From the NCBI RefSeq assembly GCF_000948975.2, contig NZ_CP059735.1, positions 3,906,001-3,970,000 of the forward strand: a stretch of 64,000 nt of DNA, read 5' to 3'. The notes under the pieces are model-generated. The model was not told the DNA's origin. It saw only the letters and a list, made by a program, of their open reading frames with translations, and did not search any database. Below, one piece after another: positions 4,680 through 51,806 of the stretch; positions within the stretch are counted from its first letter, which is position 1; each line of letters begins with the position of its first letter. Made by a program: the position numbers and the translations under genes. This DNA is from Thalassomonas actiniarum (GTDB lineage Bacteria; Pseudomonadota; Gammaproteobacteria; Enterobacterales; Alteromonadaceae).

Positions 4680-4840
4680 AGTTAACCGCCTGACAACATT
4701 TAGCACCAGCAACAGCCCTGCCCGGCCCCGCAAGCACAAGAGTAAATGCACAACCGGAAAAAATTCGCTAAAATAGCCGGAATTTCCTCGCGAATAACGC
4801 GCGCCTAAGCGCAATGCAGTTAACCATACTTAGGACACCT

Positions 4841-5539
4841 ATGCCACAGACAAGTAAACATTTAATTTGGGACCTGCCGGTACGCCTGTTTCACTGGAGC
4901 TTTGCCCTGACCATGCTCGGCGCCTGGTATACCTCGGGCCAGGAAGGGAAATACATTGAATATCATATGCAACTGGGCTATTTAGCCCTGGGTTTACTCA
5001 TCTTTCGGGTGTGCTGGGGTTTTATCGGCCCCAAACATGCCAGGTTTACTCAATTTGTGCCCTCGCCGATCAAACTTGTTCATTACCTTAAAAGTATCAA
5101 ACAAGGTACCGCAAGCCCTTCTCCCGGACATAATCCGCTTGGTAGCCTGATGGTATTAACCATGATCACCCTGGTATCGCTTCAAGCGATCAGCGGATTA
5201 TTTATCAGTGATGATGTTTTTTCTTCCGGCCCCTATTACGGCAGCCTGGACAGTGAAACGGAAAAGTTAATGAATACCCTGCACCATAATGTTTTTAACT
5301 ACATCTGGCTGTCCATTGGCCTGCACCTGTTGGCCATTGGCTATTACTGGCGGGTGAAAAAACAAAACCTGGTGGTGCCTATGATCACAGGGAAAAAATC
5401 CGCGCCGGAAGTATCACCGGAAGATGGTATCAGCAGTTCGCGCCTGGTGCTGGCATGTGTTGTGGTAATAGCCGCGGCGGCCTTTGTATACTGGCTGGTG
5501 GTACTCAATGCCCCCGAGATAACGGAGTATTATTATTAA
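4841..5539 (+). CDS. Cytochrome b561-like membrane protein
   Basis: A 232-residue di-haem b-type cytochrome related to the b subunits of Ni/Fe hydrogenases and to cytochrome b561. It opens with the characteristic WDLPVRLFHW, whose His is a haem ligand. Further conserved histidines lie in YHMQLGYL and in LHHNVFNYIWLSIGLHLL, and there are four to five membrane spans. It would move electrons across the inner membrane, probably between quinone and a periplasmic c-type cytochrome. AGGA lies 5 nt before ATG 4841, which I prefer to an in-frame ATG at 4814. The convergent neighbour encodes cytochrome c', a pairing seen in other proteobacteria. Confidence 0.85.
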   Translation: MPQTSKHLIWDLPVRLFHWSFALTMLGAWYTSGQEGKYIEYHMQLGYLALGLLIFRVCWGFIGPKHARFTQFVPSPIKLVHYLKSIKQGTASPSPGHNPLGSLMVLTMITLVSLQAISGLFISDDVFSSGPYYGSLDSETEKLMNTLHHNVFNYIWLSIGLHLLAIGYYWRVKKQNLVVPMITGKKSAPEVSPEDGISSSRLVLACVVVIAAAAFVYWLVVLNAPEITEYYY

Positions 5540-5679: not shown

Positions 5680-6153
5680 TTATTCCGCTTTAAAGTCATC
5701 ATGGCAACCGCCACAAGTTTTACCGACACCGCCGATAGCCCCTTTAATGGCCGAACTGTCTTTCGCCGCAGCCACTTTTTGCAATTTGGCTGAAGCCAGG
5801 GTTAAGTCGTTAATACGCTTGCTATAATCGTCGCCATGCTTCCAGATTTTATCCAGCGCTTCGGTTTCCACTTTAAAACCGGAAGTATCTGTTTTGCTGT
5901 AATCGGCAATCATTAATGATAACTGATTGATGCGCGTGGCATGTTTTTCCACGGCCACCGGGTCCATCGGCATTTTTCCCCGGGCCATGGCCCCTAAAGG
6001 TCCCATATTACTGCCCAATAAACTAAAGACCGACTGGCGTAATTCGGTGGCTTTTTTCGCGTGCTTTAATGACTTTGCCGGCTCTGCCACTACGGTAAAG
6101 GCCGCACATGAAACGAGGGTAGCAAGGGCAACAGATACTTTGATAAACTTCAT
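5680..6153 (-). CDS. Cytochrome c'
   Basis: A 157-residue periplasmic haemoprotein. A signal peptide (about 1-23, ending VVA) precedes an all-alpha domain, and the single haem motif CGGCH sits near the C-terminus (Cys147, Cys150, His151), the hallmark of class II cytochromes c. Family members form four-helix bundles with a five-coordinate haem that binds NO and CO, and serve in NO protection or electron transfer. GAGG lies 4 nt before the ATG. The gene converges on the b561-like cytochrome gene, a likely membrane partner (inference). Confidence 0.85.
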   Translation of the reverse strand: MKFIKVSVALATLVSCAAFTVVAEPAKSLKHAKKATELRQSVFSLLGSNMGPLGAMARGKMPMDPVAVEKHATRINQLSLMIADYSKTDTSGFKVETEALDKIWKHGDDYSKRINDLTLASAKLQKVAAAKDSSAIKGAIGGVGKTCGGCHDDFKAE

Positions 6154-6855: not shown

Positions 6856-6869
6856 TGTAAGCGCTTTCA
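6856..6869. promoter_or_regulatory. Candidate LacI-family operator, distal copy
   Basis: TGTAAGCGCTTTCA is a near-perfect palindrome with a central AAGCGCTT, the core used by many LacI/CcpA-like sugar repressors. It differs at one position from the perfect copy 135 bases downstream. Both lie upstream of the glucanase fusion gene. Confidence 0.6.
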
Positions 6870-6990: not shown

Positions 6991-7004
6991 TGTAAGCGCT
7001 TACA
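6991..7004. promoter_or_regulatory. Candidate LacI-family operator, proximal copy
   Basis: TGTAAGCGCTTACA is a perfect 14-bp palindrome 128 bases before the ATG of the glucanase fusion gene. With the copy at 6856 it could support repression by a looped LacI-type dimer pair. No LacI-type regulator gene lies in this window, so the regulator must be encoded elsewhere. The remaining bases of 6743-7131 are AT-rich and show no gene. Confidence 0.65.
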
Positions 7005-7131: not shown

Positions 7132-10100
7132 ATGAAAACAACGAGTAACTCTTGGCCATGGCGACAGCCAATGAGGTTAATACGCCCCGGGTGGCCCGTC
7201 ACCTTATTGACCCTGACGACCCTGATAGCCCCCGCTCAGGGTGCTGACTGGCCAACAGAGCAAATCGGTGCGGGTGCCGTCAGCCTCGAAGCCGTCGGCG
7301 AGCAAATTTTTGACTGGCAGGGACCCTTTGCCCGCTCGAGCCGGACAACACCGGAAAATCCCTATTTAACGGCAAACTTCACCGGCCCTGTCCCTACTAA
7401 CGACTGGGCATCGAGCTTGATCATGGATCCCTTTTCCAAATCCCTCTATGCCCATCCGTTAAGCTTTAAAGCCACTAATGAAGGCCTGGAAATCAGCCTG
7501 CCGCCGCTGTCCATCGGCAGCGTTGATAACATGGGGGAAACTTCCGTCAGGCGTATGCATGACGGCAATGTCGATTTAGTGGTAAAACCATCAACTTTCG
7601 CCCCGAACGATGCTAGGGCGGATAAAATCACCGACTGGAGTTATGATCTGGTGATGGCCAATGGCGACAAGGCAATGAAAGCCACCATAGGCCATGGCCT
7701 GCCCTATGCTTTTTTTGAATTTACCGGTAGCGAGCCTGTGGTAAGCTTAAAGCGCGGCACCAGCATGAATATCGTCAGCAATAATGGCCACCAACTCCAT
7801 ATCCGGATATGGGATCCGGTAGCAAATCACTATAACCATTATGGTTTATTTGCGCCTACAGGCACCAGCTGGAGCATTTCTGCCACACAAATCAGCGCTG
7901 ACCTGCCTGAAGGCAAAAATTATTTCACCGTCGCCGGCCTGCCCGATGGCACCAACACCACTTTCTTAGCCTTTGCCGATAAAGCCTATAACTTTGTGAC
8001 CGATACCCGGGTTTCCTGGTCGGTAAGCGACAGCAGTGGTCAGGTAAGCACCCAATATCAGGTAACGACTACAGCCAAAAGCGAAGGCAATAATAGCGGT
8101 ACCCTGATGGCGCTCTACCCGCACCAGTGGCGTAATCTCAGCGGCAACACCACAGGCAGCCAATATGAGAGTATTCGCGGCATCATGAAGCTTGTCGCCG
8201 GCAACAGTTTCACCACAGTGATGGATTACCATGGTATTTTACCCCGGATGCCTGACCTGCCCGATGCCGCTGCCGTGGCTGAGATCACCGGGCACCTTTC
8301 AGATTATTACGGCTACGGCGCGTCATTAACGCCCAAGTTTATCCAACCCGGGGCCGATGGCGGCAATACCGGTTATGATACCTACTGGATGGGCAAAAAT
8401 CTTAACCGCCTTTCCGGCTTGATCGGCATTGCCGATATGCTTGATGACAGCGACAGTGGGGTAGCCCCCATGACAACCGATATGCTTAGCAGCTTAAAAG
8501 ACCAGCTGGAATACTGGTTTGACGGTAATAAACCCACGCCGGACAGTTATTTTTATTACAACCAGGACTACGGCACCTTGATCGGTTACCCGGCAAGTTA
8601 TGGCTCGGATAACGATCTCAACGACCATCACTTTCATTACGGCTACTGGATCAATGCCGCCGCCCAGATCGCCCTGCGGGATCCCGACTGGGCCCAGGAC
8701 GAAAACTGGGGCGGTATGGTCAAAGAGCTGATCAATGATATCGCCGGTTATGACAGAGGCAGCAACCGCTATCCGTTTTTGCGTAATTTTGATATCTATG
8801 AAGGCCATTCCTGGGCATCGGGCACCGTGCCCCACGACCCGGACGGCGTCTGGGCCGGAGGCAACAATAACGAAGCTTCCTCCGAAGGCATCAACGCCTG
8901 GGCCGGTTTGATCCTCTGGGGAGAAGCCACCGGCGATAAGGCCATCCGGGATCTGGGGATCTACCTCTACACCCATGAAGTCGAGACCGCCAACAGCTAC
9001 TGGTTTAACCTTTACGGCGATATCGGCCATAAGGATTACCCCAATGTCGAAGCCTCCCGGGTCTGGGGCGGCGGTTATGATCACAGCACCTGGTGGACAG
9101 AAGACCCGGTCCAGACCCATGCCATCAACTTTTTACCTATCACCGCCGCCTCCATGTACCTGGGGGAAAACCCGGGTTTTGTCCAACGAAACTTCGATGC
9201 CATCTGGAGCGAATATGAACTTTGGGACGGCAACGGCGGACAGGAAGACAAGGAACTGATGCGGGACCGCTGGCAGGATTTGATCAGCGAATACCTGGCG
9301 TTTGCCGACCCGGATGCCGCCCTTGCCCGCTGGAAGTCCACCAATATCGAAGACGATCCGGTAAACGGTATCGACCCGGCACTGGGCATCGAGTTTGGCG
9401 AGTCCAGGGCGCATACCTACCACCATATAAAATCCCTGCAACTACTGGGACAGCCCGACTTTAGCATACGGCCGGTGGGTCACAGCCTGGGCCTGGTGTT
9501 TAATAAAAACGGCGTGAAAACCTATGTTGCCTATAATGCCGGAAATACGGCTAAAACCCTGCTCTTTAGCGACGGCAAAGGCCTGGTGGTCCCGGCAAAC
9601 AGCATGGCCCAGGGAGCAGGTATCGCAATAGCAGACAGCGACAATGACGGTGTCGCCGATCCCATAGATCTTTGCCCGAATACCCCCCCGGGTACTCAGG
9701 TCGATGCCAGCGGCTGTCCGGCCACGGTTACCGACAGTGACAACGACGGCGTGATTGACAGCCTGGATCTATGTCCGGACACCCCGCCAGGCACCCAGGT
9801 CGATGCCAGCGGCTGCCCGGTAACGGTTCCCGACAGTGACAACGACGGCGTTGCCGACAACTTAGATCAATGTCCGGACACCCCGCCAGGCACCCAGGTC
9901 GATGCCAACGGCTGCCCGGTAACGCTTTCCGACAGTGATAATGACGGCGTTGCCGACAACTTAGATCAATGTCCGGATACCCCGCCAGGCACCCAGGTCG
10001 ATGCCAACGGCTGCCCGGTAACGGTTCCCGACAGTGACAACGACGGCGTTGCCGACAATTTAGATCTGTGCCCGGGCACCCCGCCAGGCACCCAGGTCGA

Positions 10101-13100
10101 TGGCAACGGCTGTCCCCTGGTCGTACAGGAATTCGGCATTACACAAAACGCTACCACTTCGGTCACCTTTTATGTCAACACCAACGACTGGGCGATAGTG
10201 CACTACCAGGTAAACGGCGCAGGCCAACTCAACGTGCAAATGACAGACAACGGCTCGCGCAATGAGTACACAGTCACCGGCCTCGCCCCGGGAGACAGCA
10301 TAGATTACTGGTTTACCTACAACACGCCAACCGGCGCTATTGATACCCCGCCCCAGCCCAGCTACACGGTCACGGGCAACACCACCCCAAACGACAGCGA
10401 TGGCGACGGTGTGCCGGACAGCAGTGATTTATGCCCGGGTACGCCTGCGGGCACCCAGGTCGACAACTCAGGCTGCCCGGCAATCGAACCTGAGCCTACC
10501 CCTGACGATGATTTTGGCATTACCCAGCCAAGCACCAGCTCAGTCAGCTTTTATGTCAACACCAGCGACTGGGCCATAGTCCACTACAAGGTCAACAATG
10601 GTGCCCAGCAAAACGTCACTATGGTGGCCGCCGGCAGTCAAAAAACCTATACCGTAGCAGGGCTGAATCCCGGAGACAGCATAGATTACTGGTTTACCTA
10701 TAACACGCCTACAGGCGCCATAGATACTCCGCCCCAGCCCACCTACCAGGTTTCGTCAGCGCCGGACGGACCGGATACCCCGGATCCGGACAGCGATGGC
10801 GACGGTATTCCCGATAGCCGTGATTTATGTGCCGATACCCCATCGGGCACCCAGGTAGATAATAACGGCTGCCCGGTAAGCACGCCGGTTAACCGGGAAG
10901 TTGCCAGCGCCAGCGGCCTGCTGGTGGGAGGCGCTGATTCCTCCTTTCCCGGCTTTACCTTATACCGCTTTGATAACGACAGCGCCGGCCAGAGCAACTG
11001 CTTTGATACCTGTGCGCAAAGCTGGCCGCCGCTGCTGGTTACCGACGGGGTACCCTCGGGCATCCCTCAGCAAAGCGATTTGAGCACAATCGATCGGGGA
11101 AACGGTACGTTCCAGGTGGCTTACCTGGGAAAGCCCCTGTATTTTTATAGCGGCGACACGGCTGCCGGACAAACCCGCGGCCAGGGCCTGAGCGGTCTCT
11201 GGTGGACCGTCGCTTACGGCCAGCCGCTGGGAGAAATTGTTCCCCTGTACGATGAAAATACGCCGCTTGCCGATGCCATCACCTTCGACCGGGGCGATGC
11301 CCTGATCACCCGGTTTTCTGACCGTGCGCGGGATCGCCACGCCAAGGAAAACCACTTCCAGGCCTATGATCACTTCCTCAGCTTTTACTGGGAAGACCGC
11401 ACCGCCGCCATCGAGATCATCGATTATGTTGCCAAAGGCGGCAGCAGTATCCGCATGAATGTCAAAACCCTGAACAAACTCGACGACCTGCAGGCGGAAA
11501 ACCGCTGGTGGTACATGGGCAACAACACCCTGGCGGAATATTGCGGCAACGGCGTGATGGCCACCACAGACAACCGCAACTACGTCAAAGAAGACAGCTG
11601 GAACTGCCGGGAAAACCGCCCTATCCAAATCGGCGACAAACTTGAATTTGAAATCAGCCAGTTCCTTGATGCGTCGGCGCTGGCGCGGGGGCGCTCCAAC
11701 TATTACGGCACCACCTACTTATATATCGTAGGTGAAGGCCTGATGCCCTGGGATGTCACCGACAAGGAAGCCTTTGTCGGCGGCAAGACCTTCCAGCGCG
11801 ACTCTATCCCGGTGCCCGAATCTGCCCGCGCCGGCGGCGATACCAGTTTGCATGTGCAGATGACCGCAGAGCCCGACGGCCACTTCCAGCAGATGGCCAC
11901 CAACCTTGCTTACGACAACGGCCAGCCCTGGGTGTTGGGCCGCCGTGTCCATCACAGCTCCTTTGTCGACGGCAGTCATGATGAAAATGCAGAAAACGGC
12001 ATCTTCGAGGATGTTGCCGGCTTGACCGAGCGCCATTATATCAATGAACGTTGCAGCAGCTGCCATGTGCGCAACGGCCGCGCCGTACCGGCCGGGCCAG
12101 GCGAGACACTGGAGAAATGGGTCTTTAAAGTAGGCGACGTAAACGGCAACCCTCATCCTGCCCTGGGCCGGGTACTGCAGGGCCGAGCCAGCAACGCTGC
12201 AGGTGAAGGTCTGCCCTCGATCGCATCATGGACAGAAACCGACGGCTTACGCGCCCCCAACTACCAGTTCAGCGGGGTCACCCCGGATAAGTTTTCGGCA
12301 CGGATCACGCCGCAGTTAAACGGTCTGGGCCTGCTTGAGGCCATCCCCGAAACCAGCATTCTCGCCCTGGCAGATGAAAATGACAGCAACGGCGACGGCA
12401 TCTCGGGCAAAGCCGCAAAAGTGTTGGATCCGGTCACCGGAGAGACGCGTTTAGGCCGTTTTGGCTACAAAGCGGGCAACGCCAGTGTCAAACACCAGGT
12501 CGCTATGGCCTTAAATGCCGACATGGGGGTCATGACCTCGGTCTTACCGACTCCGGACTGCGGCAGCGAGCAAAACGATTGTGCCCGCTCTAACCGCCAG
12601 CTGGCCGATGAGCACCTGGAAAACCTGGTAAAATATATTTCCCTGTTAGGGGTAAGATCCCAGCGGGATTATAACGATGCGCAAGTGCTTCGCGGCAAGC
12701 AGCTTTTTAATGACATCAGCTGCAATAGTTGTCATGTCGAGCGCTTTGAAACCAGTGAATTTCACCCTCTGGCAGAGCTGCGCAGCCAAAGCGTCTACCC
12801 ATACACAGATATGTTGTTACACGATATGGGCCCCGGCCTTGCCGATAACTTAGGCGAAGGCCAGGCAACGGGCGCCGAATGGCGTACCGCCCCGTTATGG
12901 GGCATAGGTTTAAGCGCCTGTGTCACAGGCGGCGTTACCGGTGCTCCGGGCGGCGTTGCTTTTGGCCTGGACGGCAATGAAAGCTGTACCCCGGCCCACG
13001 GCTACCTGCACGATGGCCGCGCCCGTACCCTGGATGAAGCCATTCGCTGGCACGGCGGCGAAGCGCAAAACGCCGCCCTCGCCTATCAGAACCTGCATGC

Positions 13101-13143
13101 AGACGATAAGGCAGCATTGCTGAAATTTATCGGCTCATTATAA
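7132..13143 (+). CDS. Secreted fusion: GH81 endo-beta-1,3-glucanase, TSP3 repeats, CBM56-like modules and di-haem oxidoreductase
   Basis: A 2003-residue secreted protein; AAGGA lies 8 nt before the ATG. Order: signal region (1-38); GH81 catalytic domain (about 40-780) with DLNDHHFHYG (Asp498) and NNNEASSEGIN (Glu581, Glu585), where acid/base candidates of this family lie; five calcium-type thrombospondin repeats (835-999, DSDNDGVAD); CBM56-like beta-1,3-glucan-binding module (about 1001-1080); TSP3; second CBM56-like module (about 1128-1205); TSP3 (about 1219-1247); a Yx(FWY)xxD-type secreted domain of the COG4315 kind (about 1253-1362); then about 640 residues ending in a DUF1111/DHOR-type di-haem oxidoreductase with CSSCH (1641-1645) and CNSCH (1864-1868). 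GH81 enzymes cut laminarin or curdlan-like glucans. Fusion to a c-type cytochrome is unusual and suggests redox chemistry at the glucan surface (inference). Two LacI-type palindromes lie upstream. Confidence 0.88.
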   Translation: MKTTSNSWPWRQPMRLIRPGWPVTLLTLTTLIAPAQGADWPTEQIGAGAVSLEAVGEQIFDWQGPFARSSRTTPENPYLTANFTGPVPTNDWASSLIMDPFSKSLYAHPLSFKATNEGLEISLPPLSIGSVDNMGETSVRRMHDGNVDLVVKPSTFAPNDARADKITDWSYDLVMANGDKAMKATIGHGLPYAFFEFTGSEPVVSLKRGTSMNIVSNNGHQLHIRIWDPVANHYNHYGLFAPTGTSWSISATQISADLPEGKNYFTVAGLPDGTNTTFLAFADKAYNFVTDTRVSWSVSDSSGQVSTQYQVTTTAKSEGNNSGTLMALYPHQWRNLSGNTTGSQYESIRGIMKLVAGNSFTTVMDYHGILPRMPDLPDAAAVAEITGHLSDYYGYGASLTPKFIQPGADGGNTGYDTYWMGKNLNRLSGLIGIADMLDDSDSGVAPMTTDMLSSLKDQLEYWFDGNKPTPDSYFYYNQDYGTLIGYPASYGSDNDLNDHHFHYGYWINAAAQIALRDPDWAQDENWGGMVKELINDIAGYDRGSNRYPFLRNFDIYEGHSWASGTVPHDPDGVWAGGNNNEASSEGINAWAGLILWGEATGDKAIRDLGIYLYTHEVETANSYWFNLYGDIGHKDYPNVEASRVWGGGYDHSTWWTEDPVQTHAINFLPITAASMYLGENPGFVQRNFDAIWSEYELWDGNGGQEDKELMRDRWQDLISEYLAFADPDAALARWKSTNIEDDPVNGIDPALGIEFGESRAHTYHHIKSLQLLGQPDFSIRPVGHSLGLVFNKNGVKTYVAYNAGNTAKTLLFSDGKGLVVPANSMAQGAGIAIADSDNDGVADPIDLCPNTPPGTQVDASGCPATVTDSDNDGVIDSLDLCPDTPPGTQVDASGCPVTVPDSDNDGVADNLDQCPDTPPGTQVDANGCPVTLSDSDNDGVADNLDQCPDTPPGTQVDANGCPVTVPDSDNDGVADNLDLCPGTPPGTQVDGNGCPLVVQEFGITQNATTSVTFYVNTNDWAIVHYQVNGAGQLNVQMTDNGSRNEYTVTGLAPGDSIDYWFTYNTPTGAIDTPPQPSYTVTGNTTPNDSDGDGVPDSSDLCPGTPAGTQVDNSGCPAIEPEPTPDDDFGITQPSTSSVSFYVNTSDWAIVHYKVNNGAQQNVTMVAAGSQKTYTVAGLNPGDSIDYWFTYNTPTGAIDTPPQPTYQVSSAPDGPDTPDPDSDGDGIPDSRDLCADTPSGTQVDNNGCPVSTPVNREVASASGLLVGGADSSFPGFTLYRFDNDSAGQSNCFDTCAQSWPPLLVTDGVPSGIPQQSDLSTIDRGNGTFQVAYLGKPLYFYSGDTAAGQTRGQGLSGLWWTVAYGQPLGEIVPLYDENTPLADAITFDRGDALITRFSDRARDRHAKENHFQAYDHFLSFYWEDRTAAIEIIDYVAKGGSSIRMNVKTLNKLDDLQAENRWWYMGNNTLAEYCGNGVMATTDNRNYVKEDSWNCRENRPIQIGDKLEFEISQFLDASALARGRSNYYGTTYLYIVGEGLMPWDVTDKEAFVGGKTFQRDSIPVPESARAGGDTSLHVQMTAEPDGHFQQMATNLAYDNGQPWVLGRRVHHSSFVDGSHDENAENGIFEDVAGLTERHYINERCSSCHVRNGRAVPAGPGETLEKWVFKVGDVNGNPHPALGRVLQGRASNAAGEGLPSIASWTETDGLRAPNYQFSGVTPDKFSARITPQLNGLGLLEAIPETSILALADENDSNGDGISGKAAKVLDPVTGETRLGRFGYKAGNASVKHQVAMALNADMGVMTSVLPTPDCGSEQNDCARSNRQLADEHLENLVKYISLLGVRSQRDYNDAQVLRGKQLFNDISCNSCHVERFETSEFHPLAELRSQSVYPYTDMLLHDMGPGLADNLGEGQATGAEWRTAPLWGIGLSACVTGGVTGAPGGVAFGLDGNESCTPAHGYLHDGRARTLDEAIRWHGGEAQNAALAYQNLHADDKAALLKFIGSL
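9634..10128 (+). repeat. Five tandem 99-bp units encoding thrombospondin type 3 repeats
   Basis: Units begin at 9634, 9733, 9832, 9931 and 10030, exactly 99 bases apart, each encoding a DSDNDG calcium loop followed by LCP..TPPGTQVD..GCP. The middle copies are nearly identical at the DNA level, which implies recent duplication and likely length variation between strains. Two more single units lie farther on in the same gene, each after a glucan-binding module. Confidence 0.9.
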
Positions 13144-42844: not shown

Positions 42845-43849
42845 TTATTCGTCGGCCAACCGGACCTCATCCGTGCCTTTAAACATCATCTCCGGGGAAG
42901 GCGGCAGCAAGGGTAACAAAATTTGCGGACGCTCTCCGGTCAGGCTCTTTAAAAAGGCAACAATATCCGAAGTCTGCTGCACCGTTAAGGTTCTCCCCAG
43001 CTGTATGCTGGCCATCACATTCACGGCTTCGCCAAGCTCCCATACCGCCCCGTCATGAAAATATGGCGCGGTTAATTCGATATTCCTTAAGGTCGGCACT
43101 TTAAACACATTTTTATCTGCCGCCCTGGAAGTGACTTGATAACGCCCGAGTGAGGTATTTTTCGTCAGGTAAGGTTTAACCACCCCCATTTTCTGGTAAC
43201 TGTTGCCGCCAACCGCAGGCCCGTTATGACAGGCAATACAGCCGATTTCTTTAAACGTTTGATAACCGCGTATTTGTTTTGCCGACAAGACATCCCCGTC
43301 TCCCTTTAACCAGAGATCGAAGTCTGAATTAGGGGTCACTAAGGTGGCTTCAAAAGCGGCAATGGCATCGGTGACTTTATCAATATTGATATTGCCTCCG
43401 CCGTATACCGCCATAAACTCTGCCTGGTACTGGGGAATGCCCGCCAGGGTTTTCACTACGATATCATGGCTCGACGCCATTTCCTTCTCGGCGACTATCG
43501 GGCCTGCGGCCTGCTCTTTTAAATCGGCTGCCCGGCCATCCCAAAATTGCGCCAGGTTATAACCGGCATTAAACACGGTCGGCGAGTTTATCGGTCCTTC
43601 GGCCCAGCCATGGCCGATAGATGTCGGCAGATTATCCGTGCCGCTGCTGGCTAGGTTATGGCAGGAGTTACAGCTGATAATGCCCGATTTTGATAATCTG
43701 GGTTCAAAAAACAGCTTTTTACCCAGCTCGACTTTAGCGGCATTTTTGATACTTACCGGCTCGATAACCTGGATAGGCTCTTGTGCCCAAGAAGATGCAG
43801 TAAAACCACCGGCGGGTAAAAGTAGAGATAAAAAAAGAAAAGATTTCAT
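42845..43849 (-). CDS. Di-haem cytochrome c peroxidase
   Basis: The 334-residue product has a signal peptide (LFLSLLLPAGGFTASSWA). It is a CcpA/MauG family enzyme with two haem motifs, CNSCH (about 59-63) and CIACH (about 204-208). Family sequences are evident: ELGKKLFFEPRLSKSG, WDGRAADLKEQAAGPI and VPTLRNIELTAPYFHDG. It reduces hydrogen peroxide in the periplasm with electrons from small cytochromes. It is monocistronic. A second member lies at 50.4 kb and a related di-haem domain is fused to the glucanase. Confidence 0.92.
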   Translation of the reverse strand: MKSFLFLSLLLPAGGFTASSWAQEPIQVIEPVSIKNAAKVELGKKLFFEPRLSKSGIISCNSCHNLASSGTDNLPTSIGHGWAEGPINSPTVFNAGYNLAQFWDGRAADLKEQAAGPIVAEKEMASSHDIVVKTLAGIPQYQAEFMAVYGGGNINIDKVTDAIAAFEATLVTPNSDFDLWLKGDGDVLSAKQIRGYQTFKEIGCIACHNGPAVGGNSYQKMGVVKPYLTKNTSLGRYQVTSRAADKNVFKVPTLRNIELTAPYFHDGAVWELGEAVNVMASIQLGRTLTVQQTSDIVAFLKSLTGERPQILLPLLPPSPEMMFKGTDEVRLADE

Positions 43850-50417: not shown

Positions 50418-51806
50418 ATGATGCTTACCTTATCTAAGATAAAAACACCTAGCCGTCAGTTAACCTTATTAACCAGCCTGTCCCTTTGTGCTTTAACGGC
50501 CTCGGCAACGGAGCTTAATGCCCAGTCACTGGATCAGAAATTGCGCATGAAATTAACTCATCATAATATCAGCCAAGTGACGCCCCCGCCTCCCCAGTCA
50601 CCGGCCTTAGTGGCCCTGGGGAGAAACCTTTTTTTTGAAAAGGAAATTTCCGGGCGCAGAAATATGTCCTGCTCCACCTGCCACAGTCCTATGCTGGGGT
50701 CGGCCGACGGCCAAAGCCAGTCCCGCGGACAAGGGGCAATTGGACTCGGCCCCGCCAGACGGCAAAAAGCAGATGAATTTTTCCAGTTCCTGCCCAGAAA
50801 TACCCCCAGCCTCTGGAACCGGGGGGTTAAGCAGTGGACAACCATGTTCTGGGACGGCCGCCTGGGAGGCACACCCCAAACCGGTTTTTTCTCTCCGGCA
50901 GGCGCCGATACGCCGCAAACATTCTCCAGCGCCCTGGCGGCTTTTGCCATTATGCCGGTGACACCGGACGAGGAAATGCGCGGTTTTCCCGGGCAATTGG
51001 ATGCTTTTGGCCAGGTCAATGAAATAGGTGAACTGGGCAATGAAGATTTCATCCAAATCTGGGATTTAGTCACCGCCCGGGTCACCAACCATGACGGCTA
51101 TAATACCTTACTCGCCGACGCCTTCCCCGGCGTACCCGAAAGCGAGCTGGATATCAGCCATATCAGCGAGGCACTCGGCGCCTTTATGACGGATGAATTC
51201 ACGGCATTAAACTCCCCCTTTGACCGTTACCTTAAAGGCAATAATAAGGCGCTGTCCAAGCGGGCGAAACAAGGGGCCTTGCTGTTTTATGGCCGGGCCA
51301 ATTGCGTCAACTGCCATAGCGGTGCACTGCAAACCGACCTTGATTTTCATAATATTGCCGCCCCCCAGGTAGGCACAGGCCGGGGAGATGCGGCACCGCT
51401 TGATATCGGCCGGGGTGCCATCACGGAAAATCCGGCGGATAACTTCAAGTTTCGTACTCCCTCCTTACGGAATATCACACTTGAAGCCCCCTATTTCCAT
51501 AACGGCGCCTTTGCAAAATTAACCGATGCCGTCAGGCACCACCTGGACCCGCAAGCCAGCCTGGCCAATTATGATGCCTCGCAAATAGAACCTGAGCTGG
51601 CAGGCATGTTTGTCAACGATGCCGACACAATAAATACCCTGCTCACCACCCGCTCCCCTAAACTCAACATCTCCGGCGCCCCGCTTTCAGAACGTGAAAT
51701 CAGCCAGATCTTGGCGTTTTTATCGGCGCTTACCGATCCGGATTCCCTCAATAAACTCGATATCGTGCCGGATAACCTGCCCAGCGGACTGACCCTGGCC
51801 GACTAG
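50418..51806 (+). CDS. Di-haem cytochrome c peroxidase family protein
   Basis: A 462-residue exported protein; GGAG lies 6 nt before the ATG and the signal peptide ends near SATA. Two haem sites are visible, CSTCH (about 81-85) and CVNCH (about 297-301), with typical ALGRNLFFEKEISGRRNMS, MFWDGRLGG, FRTPSLRNITLEAPYFHNGA. It is longer than the usual CcpA, close to the MauG-like group. It may reduce peroxide or oxidise a protein or small-molecule partner. It is a single-gene unit with its own terminator. Confidence 0.88.
   Translation: MMLTLSKIKTPSRQLTLLTSLSLCALTASATELNAQSLDQKLRMKLTHHNISQVTPPPPQSPALVALGRNLFFEKEISGRRNMSCSTCHSPMLGSADGQSQSRGQGAIGLGPARRQKADEFFQFLPRNTPSLWNRGVKQWTTMFWDGRLGGTPQTGFFSPAGADTPQTFSSALAAFAIMPVTPDEEMRGFPGQLDAFGQVNEIGELGNEDFIQIWDLVTARVTNHDGYNTLLADAFPGVPESELDISHISEALGAFMTDEFTALNSPFDRYLKGNNKALSKRAKQGALLFYGRANCVNCHSGALQTDLDFHNIAAPQVGTGRGDAAPLDIGRGAITENPADNFKFRTPSLRNITLEAPYFHNGAFAKLTDAVRHHLDPQASLANYDASQIEPELAGMFVNDADTINTLLTTRSPKLNISGAPLSEREISQILAFLSALTDPDSLNKLDIVPDNLPSGLTLAD

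Follow-up and report, generated by a model that had tools for sequence, protein, structure and literature searches.

Among the closest described systems is Xyn65 of Gilvimarinus xylanilyticus, a 1,3-xylanase with the domain order GH26-CBM31-CBM6-Big-DHOR that accounts for 82.3% of the secretome's 1,3-xylanase spectra (PMC9638140). In the excerpts of that paper used here, the authors report DHOR as previously unseen in glycoside hydrolases (GHs) and suggest that the domain either has redox activity on xylan or serves for binding or structure. Here we describe a gene in a 64,000-nucleotide stretch of Thalassomonas actiniarum DNA (NZ_CP059735.1, positions 3,906,001 to 3,970,000; the window) that encodes GH81, carbohydrate-binding modules (CBMs) of family 56 and a di-haem DHOR domain in one protein. 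Like Xyn65, it combines a GH, CBMs and a C-terminal DHOR, with a β-1,3-linked polymer (algal in the case of Xyn65); it differs in carrying GH81 and CBM56 for glucan, whereas Xyn65 carries GH26 and CBM31 for xylan. The sequence-only reading of this gene knew of no described enzyme with its architecture. This holds in part: a GH fused to DHOR is already in print as Xyn65, whereas a GH81-DHOR enzyme was not found in limited literature searches. Among the matches listed from the open-licence PMC literature, none combined GH81 or GH16 with DHOR, or a laminarinase with a di-haem protein, and none contained domain X (see below), which does not show absence from print.

Cbp2D and Cbp2E of Cellvibrio japonicus, like certain proteins of Teredinibacter turnerae, tether c-type redox domains to CBMs in polysaccharide degraders, but their domains are X158, X183, X132 and PQQ, their polymer is cellulose, and the excerpts used name no hydrolase domain in them (PMC12542752, PMC8981238, PMC12055684). 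The earlier comparison with Cbp2D/E is apt in kind but not in detail, as those proteins are described as carrying the single-haem domains X183 and X132 (PMC8981238). Pfam and NCBIfam scans of the GH81-DHOR protein gave no match to YceI, FN3 or DUF1587, and used no models of X158, X183 or X132. The rubber oxygenase RoxA is also a di-haem relative of bacterial cytochrome c peroxidases (bCCPs) at a polymer, and is secreted; it differs in that its pocket lacks acid-base residues, its substrate is rubber, and the excerpted account mentions neither CBM nor hydrolase parts (PMC6797691). DUF1111 (DHOR) has been linked to imelysin loci (PMC3143127). With such canonical DHOR proteins (PF06537, imelysin/iron-type loci) the protein shares a di-haem core, with 27–38% of the aligned residues identical in 26 rows; none of these rows has X, a CBM, a GH or equivalents of His1608 or His1616, and Glu1618 occurs in 1/26. 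bCCPs, MauG and MbnH are mostly small periplasmic proteins. Unlike them, the protein has Asp in place of Glu, large extra loops and glucan modules. New here are an undescribed domain X, a recurrent X-DHOR module family, its bCCP/MauG-like pocket, and operators common to GH1, GH30 and TonB-receptor genes.

The gene (Table 1) is, as first described, a single ATG-started frame of 2003 codons with no internal stop, in a genome of 7.49 Mb assembled in two contigs. An assembly fusion of two genes had been named as a risk. We rule this out because all three other genomes of the genus that were sampled have GH81, CBM56, Lipoprotein_15 and DHOR in a single frame under purifying selection. Their open frames are 2036, 2010 and 1793 amino acids (aa) long; the third has one CBM56 stretch and the other two have two each. 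Ratios of nonsynonymous to synonymous substitution (dN/dS) against the congeners are 0.08–0.10 for GH81, 0.08–0.11 for X and 0.09–0.10 for the haem part, and 0.14–0.21 for the TSP3/CBM56 and Lipoprotein_15 parts; purifying selection acts on every part of the gene. The GH81-DHOR fusion is genuine and common to the genus. The protein is most likely secreted.

Pfam-A matched both GH81 domains (N, aa 82–361, E 2.5e-11; C, aa 417–741, E 9.2e-46), and aa 76–830 align with solved GH81 structures (6fop_A, E 2.2e-181), in agreement with the N-terminal GH81 predicted earlier. The N and C domains are full length, and the conserved active-site motifs NDHHFHYGYW (aa 497–506) and GGNNNEASSEG (aa 576–586) are present, with Asp and Glu residues that we take to be catalytic. 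The predicted TSP3 repeats and two CBM56-like modules were likewise matched by Pfam-A, the former in seven stretches and the latter in two (CBM_56, E 2.8e-48; 93.4 and 90.6 bits against a profile cut-off of 27). The domain previously described only by a Yx(FWY)xxD pattern is Lipoprotein_15 (two stretches, E 7e-17). These domain calls support the proposal of an endo-β-1,3-glucanase joined to DHOR through CBM56.

That proposal placed a DHOR domain near two CxxCH motifs. Both motifs were confirmed at aa 1641–1645 and 1864–1868, and Pfam-A matched DHOR (PF06537) at aa 1722–2003 (E 1.5e-61; 208.8 bits against a curated cut-off of 22; profile positions 213–499 of 499). The profile match begins at 210–213 in the window protein and in 12 X proteins. 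Haem 1 lines up with that of canonical DHOR, though the stretch preceding it (X) differs, and both CxxCH align in 26/26 canonical and 69/69 X-group rows; from the latter we excluded sequences lacking one or both CxxCH (one of 80 loci). When the DHOR core was compared with 18 bCCP-type sequences of related genomes, hhalign returned Prob 99.5 (E 1.3e-21). FWDGR..EQA..PI....EM of bCCP pairs with FGYKA..HQVAMALNADMG, the paired residues including Gln1789, Ala1793, Asp1797 and Met1798. NgBCCP is described as having Phe97, Gln108, Pro112, Glu118 and Met119 in the P-haem cavity, Trp98 between the haems and His/Met ligation of the E haem (PMC10094543), and a Glu/Gln/Pro pocket is described as common to bCCP, MauG and BthA (PMC6405878). 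The Gln1789 and Asp1797 positions are kept in 69/69 X-group and 25/26 canonical rows, and position 1779 is Trp in 40 and Tyr in 29 of the 69. Met1899 is present in 68/69 X-group rows (the exception, L117, runs into a contig end), with an equivalent in 23/26 canonical rows. By alignment, the protein has the pocket Gln and acid residue of bCCP-type enzymes (Asp for Glu), and Met1899 stands opposite the Met of their His/Met electron-entry haem. Judged from these alignments, the haem part belongs to the bCCP/MauG superfamily, with a conserved Gln/Asp pocket, and the pocket and His/Met haem fit a peroxide-reacting di-haem enzyme.

Our favoured reading, to which we give about an even chance, is a glucan-tethered, peroxide-reacting di-haem enzyme carried on an endo-β-1,3-glucanase, most likely a peroxidase. 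GH81 would cut β-1,3-glucan while CBM56, and perhaps X too, would keep the protein on it. If both haems are loaded, as we infer, the N-terminal haem would react with H2O2 through Gln1789 and Asp1797, and the C-terminal His/Met haem would be supplied with electrons at the glucan surface by a donor such as a phenolic or other small reductant. The presumed benefit is consumption of H2O2 at the site of glucan breakdown, for instance during an algal oxidative burst. Handling of peroxide at the polymer surface was one of the options named at the outset, and it is the one these data favour.

The same residues bear on two other functions. A dioxygenase like RoxA, using O2 to attack an alkene or aromatic compound encountered on algae, would draw on the precedent of a secreted di-haem protein that is a structural relative of bCCP (PMC6797691). 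However, the RoxA pocket is described as lacking acid-base residues and using Phe301 and Phe317 (PMC6797691), and in the X group, by alignment, the pocket Gln and Asp are invariant (69/69 rows); we consider this function highly improbable. RoxA was not among the 50 matches listed, which excludes nothing. The authors of Xyn65 raised the option that DHOR serves to bind or stabilise and has no redox role; for the tail described here we give this a slim chance. Recombinant Xyn65 from E. coli showed 1,3-xylanase activity (PMC9638140), and hydrolysis needs no haem. Arguing the other way, 68–69 of 69 X-group rows retain both CxxCH, the pocket residues and Met1899, and the haem part has the same dN/dS as GH81.

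Between Lipoprotein_15 and the haems lies a domain, overlooked earlier, that we call X. No Pfam or NCBIfam model matched aa 1366–1640 at E up to 1, and a comparison of X with PDB sequences gave one chance-level row (E 0.77). Structure prediction suggests that aa ~1386–1538 form a β-sandwich closest in fold to CBM56; an early prediction from 15 rows (pLDDT 47, pTM 0.34) was not used. Profile comparison did not detect kinship of X with CBM56 (hhalign Prob 0.4, within shuffled controls; no Pfam match). X contains a conserved charged loop, DRxRDRHAKExxFQxYDH (aa 1397–1414). It was detected in proteins of the F5/8C type (L038/L039, hhalign Prob 99.3), and showed no detectable relation to the corresponding region of a xylan-type protein (L041, Prob 0.2). 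His1608, His1616 and Glu1618 are present in 71/71 X and F5/8C rows, compared to 0/26 canonical DHOR rows for either His and 1/26 for Glu1618. This pattern fits a clade-specific addition before haem 1.

An X-alignment scan of contigs matched 200 stretches, 154 of them relatives, and the best 80 were analysed. Both CxxCH are present in 79/80 of these frames (exception, L104). The N-terminal parts vary: Pfam found CBM56 at 47 loci, TSP3 at 30, CBM6 at 29, F5/8C at 24, GH16 at 20, Lipoprotein_15 at 19, GH3 at two and GH81 at one. X is rare, being present in 3/369 sampled gammaproteobacterial genomes, the source genome included, and PF06537 matched in 33/229 genomes, 31 of them above the cut-off. 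In a tree of 71 sequences built by a quick method, the GH81 fusion forms one clade (support 100), sister to Reinekea proteins that have CBM56 and no GH. At least eight changes are needed for the GH labels on this tree, and a single clade of the 15 GH16 rows was rejected (p-AU 6e-60). GH16 labels numbered 23/80 by phmmer versus 20/80 by Pfam; L098, GH16 by phmmer with no GH16 in Pfam at 1e-5, was left out of the labels and the clade test. The label changes may reflect repeated fusion or one gain with several losses. In L030, L063, L101 and L106 a GH16 gene adjoins a separate X-DHOR gene. Fourteen GH81 matches were found in 37 X-DHOR genomes; of these, only the Thalassomonas match lies in a frame of about 2000 aa, and the remaining 13 GH81 frames are 842–1467 aa. 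Judged by N-terminal domains, tree labels and split pairs, X-DHOR is a recurrent module in which the redox part is constant and the hydrolase part varies. The GH81-DHOR gene is one lineage of this larger family.

Several individual loci stand out. Teredinibacter sp. ISS155 holds seven of the 80 (L071, L092, L094, L098, L107, L114 and L117), a striking expansion. A third hydrolase family accompanies the module in GH3-CBM6-Lipoprotein_15-X-DHOR proteins (L102:3579-9914, 2112 aa; L103:1560-9914, 2785 aa), and L063:4388-12375 has consecutive genes for CBM6-DHOR, X-DHOR and GH16. L041:4663-7719 encodes CBM31-CBM31-Big-DHOR with a pre-haem region that has no detectable relation to X; judging from this locus, β-1,3-xylan proteins may have acquired DHOR independently. 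The source genome also has a canonical DHOR copy adjoining an imelysin gene, and a third, divergent DHOR-like protein (L043:7092-8774, 561 aa) with a C-terminal profile match only.

Two LacI-type palindromes lie upstream of the GH81-DHOR gene (Table 1), and two sites occurred in 0/100 window shuffles. Across the 7.49-Mb genome, 11 sites match the pattern TGWAAGCGCTTWCA and none matches the reversed control. Other sites fall at a GH1-MFS-LacI cluster (MFS, major facilitator superfamily) with a divergent MFS gene, a TonB receptor, a GH30-CBM gene adjoining GH5 pieces, a CBM9-like protein, a β-lactamase-family protein, a PEP-CTERM protein and one gap between two unscanned genes. The regulator is presumably the LacI protein of the GH1-MFS-LacI cluster. 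Upstream of the 80 X-DHOR frames (−800 to +60), 12 sites were found in 68.5 kb, compared to 6 in the other 1.17 Mb; a looser pattern gave 13 versus 11 there, with 0 and 2 for the reversed control. One gene of the operator set, GH5-CBM6-CBM5 at L142:6008-7593 (-), lies in two adjacent frames and may be broken; one scanned frame holds only the C-terminal GH5 part.

Electron donation to a glucan-active lytic polysaccharide monooxygenase (LPMO), as proposed for Cbp2D, was the first role suggested for the haem domain. CjX183 of Cbp2D is reported to reduce LPMOs in vitro (PMC8981238). The source genome has one LPMO_10 gene, and LPMO_10, the AA10 family to which the search was confined, occurs in 30/50 X-DHOR genomes versus 24/98 relatives searched. 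Such co-occurrence is raised, as expected of polysaccharide degraders, and is not required: LPMO_10 is absent from 20/50 X-DHOR genomes (completeness not given) and from five of 13 relatives with glucan-type X-DHOR (G015, G025, G029, G040 and G074; the F5/8C-type G072 and G096 were left out of the 13), among them G015, a single-contig genome of 100% completeness. The proposed check for an LPMO gene with the same operator found none at ≤3 mismatches in the 12 kb surrounding the genome's only LPMO_10 gene, and LPMO_10 is not among the 25 neighbour families listed of 173. Moreover, the peroxidatic pocket residues are retained, and a simple electron relay could dispense with them. Electron feeding as a general role is thus weakened, and we regard it as improbable.

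Other points weigh against a glucan-tethered peroxidase. The pocket has Asp for Glu, at Gln+8 instead of Gln+10, and may differ from that of bCCP; the hhalign match is a global one containing large gaps, and the ligands were assigned from alignment instead of from coordinates. In 13/80 loci phmmer found none of the six glucan-type domains sought, the operator occurs at only 9/80 X-DHOR loci, and several of its places in the source genome have no clear glucan role. Xyn65 supports the kind of enzyme and is not surely of the same family, because the pre-haem region of the CBM31-type L041 has no detectable relation to X. Nor does plain peroxide removal account for the conserved X loop and for His1608, His1616 and Glu1618. 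An unlikely but conceivable alternative is peroxide-driven glucan oxidation, in which X would present β-1,3-glucan to the haem module and chains would be oxidised or broken with H2O2, aiding the hydrolase on insoluble glucan. It is more doubtful that X-DHOR represents a novel class of enzymes for oxidative attack on polysaccharides, a haem counterpart of the copper LPMOs fused with GH81, GH16 or GH3, in which the CBM56-like sandwich X would feed β-1,3-glucan to a peroxide-using di-haem centre for chain cleavage or oxidation.

Table 1. Features of the GH81-DHOR locus, in window coordinates
Feature	Position	Strand	Basis or remark
Whole gene, 2003 aa	7132..13143	+	GH81-TSP3-CBM56-TSP3-CBM56-TSP3-Lipoprotein_15-X-di-haem DHOR
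Putative signal peptide, aa 1-37, cleavage ~APAQG/AD	7132..7242	+	judged by eye from sequence
GH81 endo-β-1,3-glucanase domain, aa 76-830	7357..9621	+	Pfam and structure alignment
TSP3 repeats, first block, aa 831-1000	9622..10131	+	Pfam
CBM56 no. 1, aa 1002-1072	10135..10347	+	Pfam, 93.4 bits
CBM56 no. 2, aa 1129-1199	10516..10728	+	Pfam, 90.6 bits
Lipoprotein_15 (PF03640) region, aa 1272-1360	10945..11211	+	Pfam and NCBIfam scans
Domain X, aa 1366-1600, not previously described	11227..11931	+	predicted structure and alignments
Di-haem bCCP/MauG-like domain, aa 1561-2003	11812..13140	+	Pfam, hhalign, predicted structure
Haem 1 motif CSSCH, aa 1641-1645, presumed peroxidatic haem	12052..12066	+	alignment
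Tyr1779, near inter-haem Trp of bCCP in profile alignment	12466..12468	+	alignment
Gln1789, opposite catalytic Gln of bCCP	12496..12498	+	alignment
Asp1797, near catalytic Glu of bCCP	12520..12522	+	alignment
Haem 2 motif CNSCH, aa 1864-1868, presumed electron-entry haem	12721..12735	+	alignment
Met1899 (LLHDMG), presumed axial ligand, haem 2	12826..12828	+	alignment
LacI-type palindromic operator TGTAAGCGCTTTCA	6856..6869		pattern search
LacI-type operator TGTAAGCGCTTACA, perfect palindrome	6991..7004		pattern search
Cytochrome b561-type gene	4814-5539	+	upstream of GH81-DHOR gene
Cytochrome c' gene	5680-6153	-	upstream, strand opposite to GH81-DHOR gene

The cytochrome b561-type and cytochrome c' genes were considered as redox partners; they gave no evidence of an operon with the GH81-DHOR gene. 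Further di-haem CCP_MauG proteins are encoded in the window at 42845-43849 (-) and 50418-51806 (+), and CCP_MauG matches number 11 across the genome.

Laminarin and other β-1,3-glucans are major marine carbon stores. To our knowledge, accounts of their breakdown usually mention hydrolysis alone. A di-haem module with retained peroxidatic residues recurs in many genera on hydrolases and binding proteins for β-1,3-glucan (GH16, GH81, GH3, CBM56), which suggests that glucan breakdown includes a layer of oxidation or peroxide handling. With split and fused versions, operators and a conserved pocket, the question can be tested with one or two proteins.

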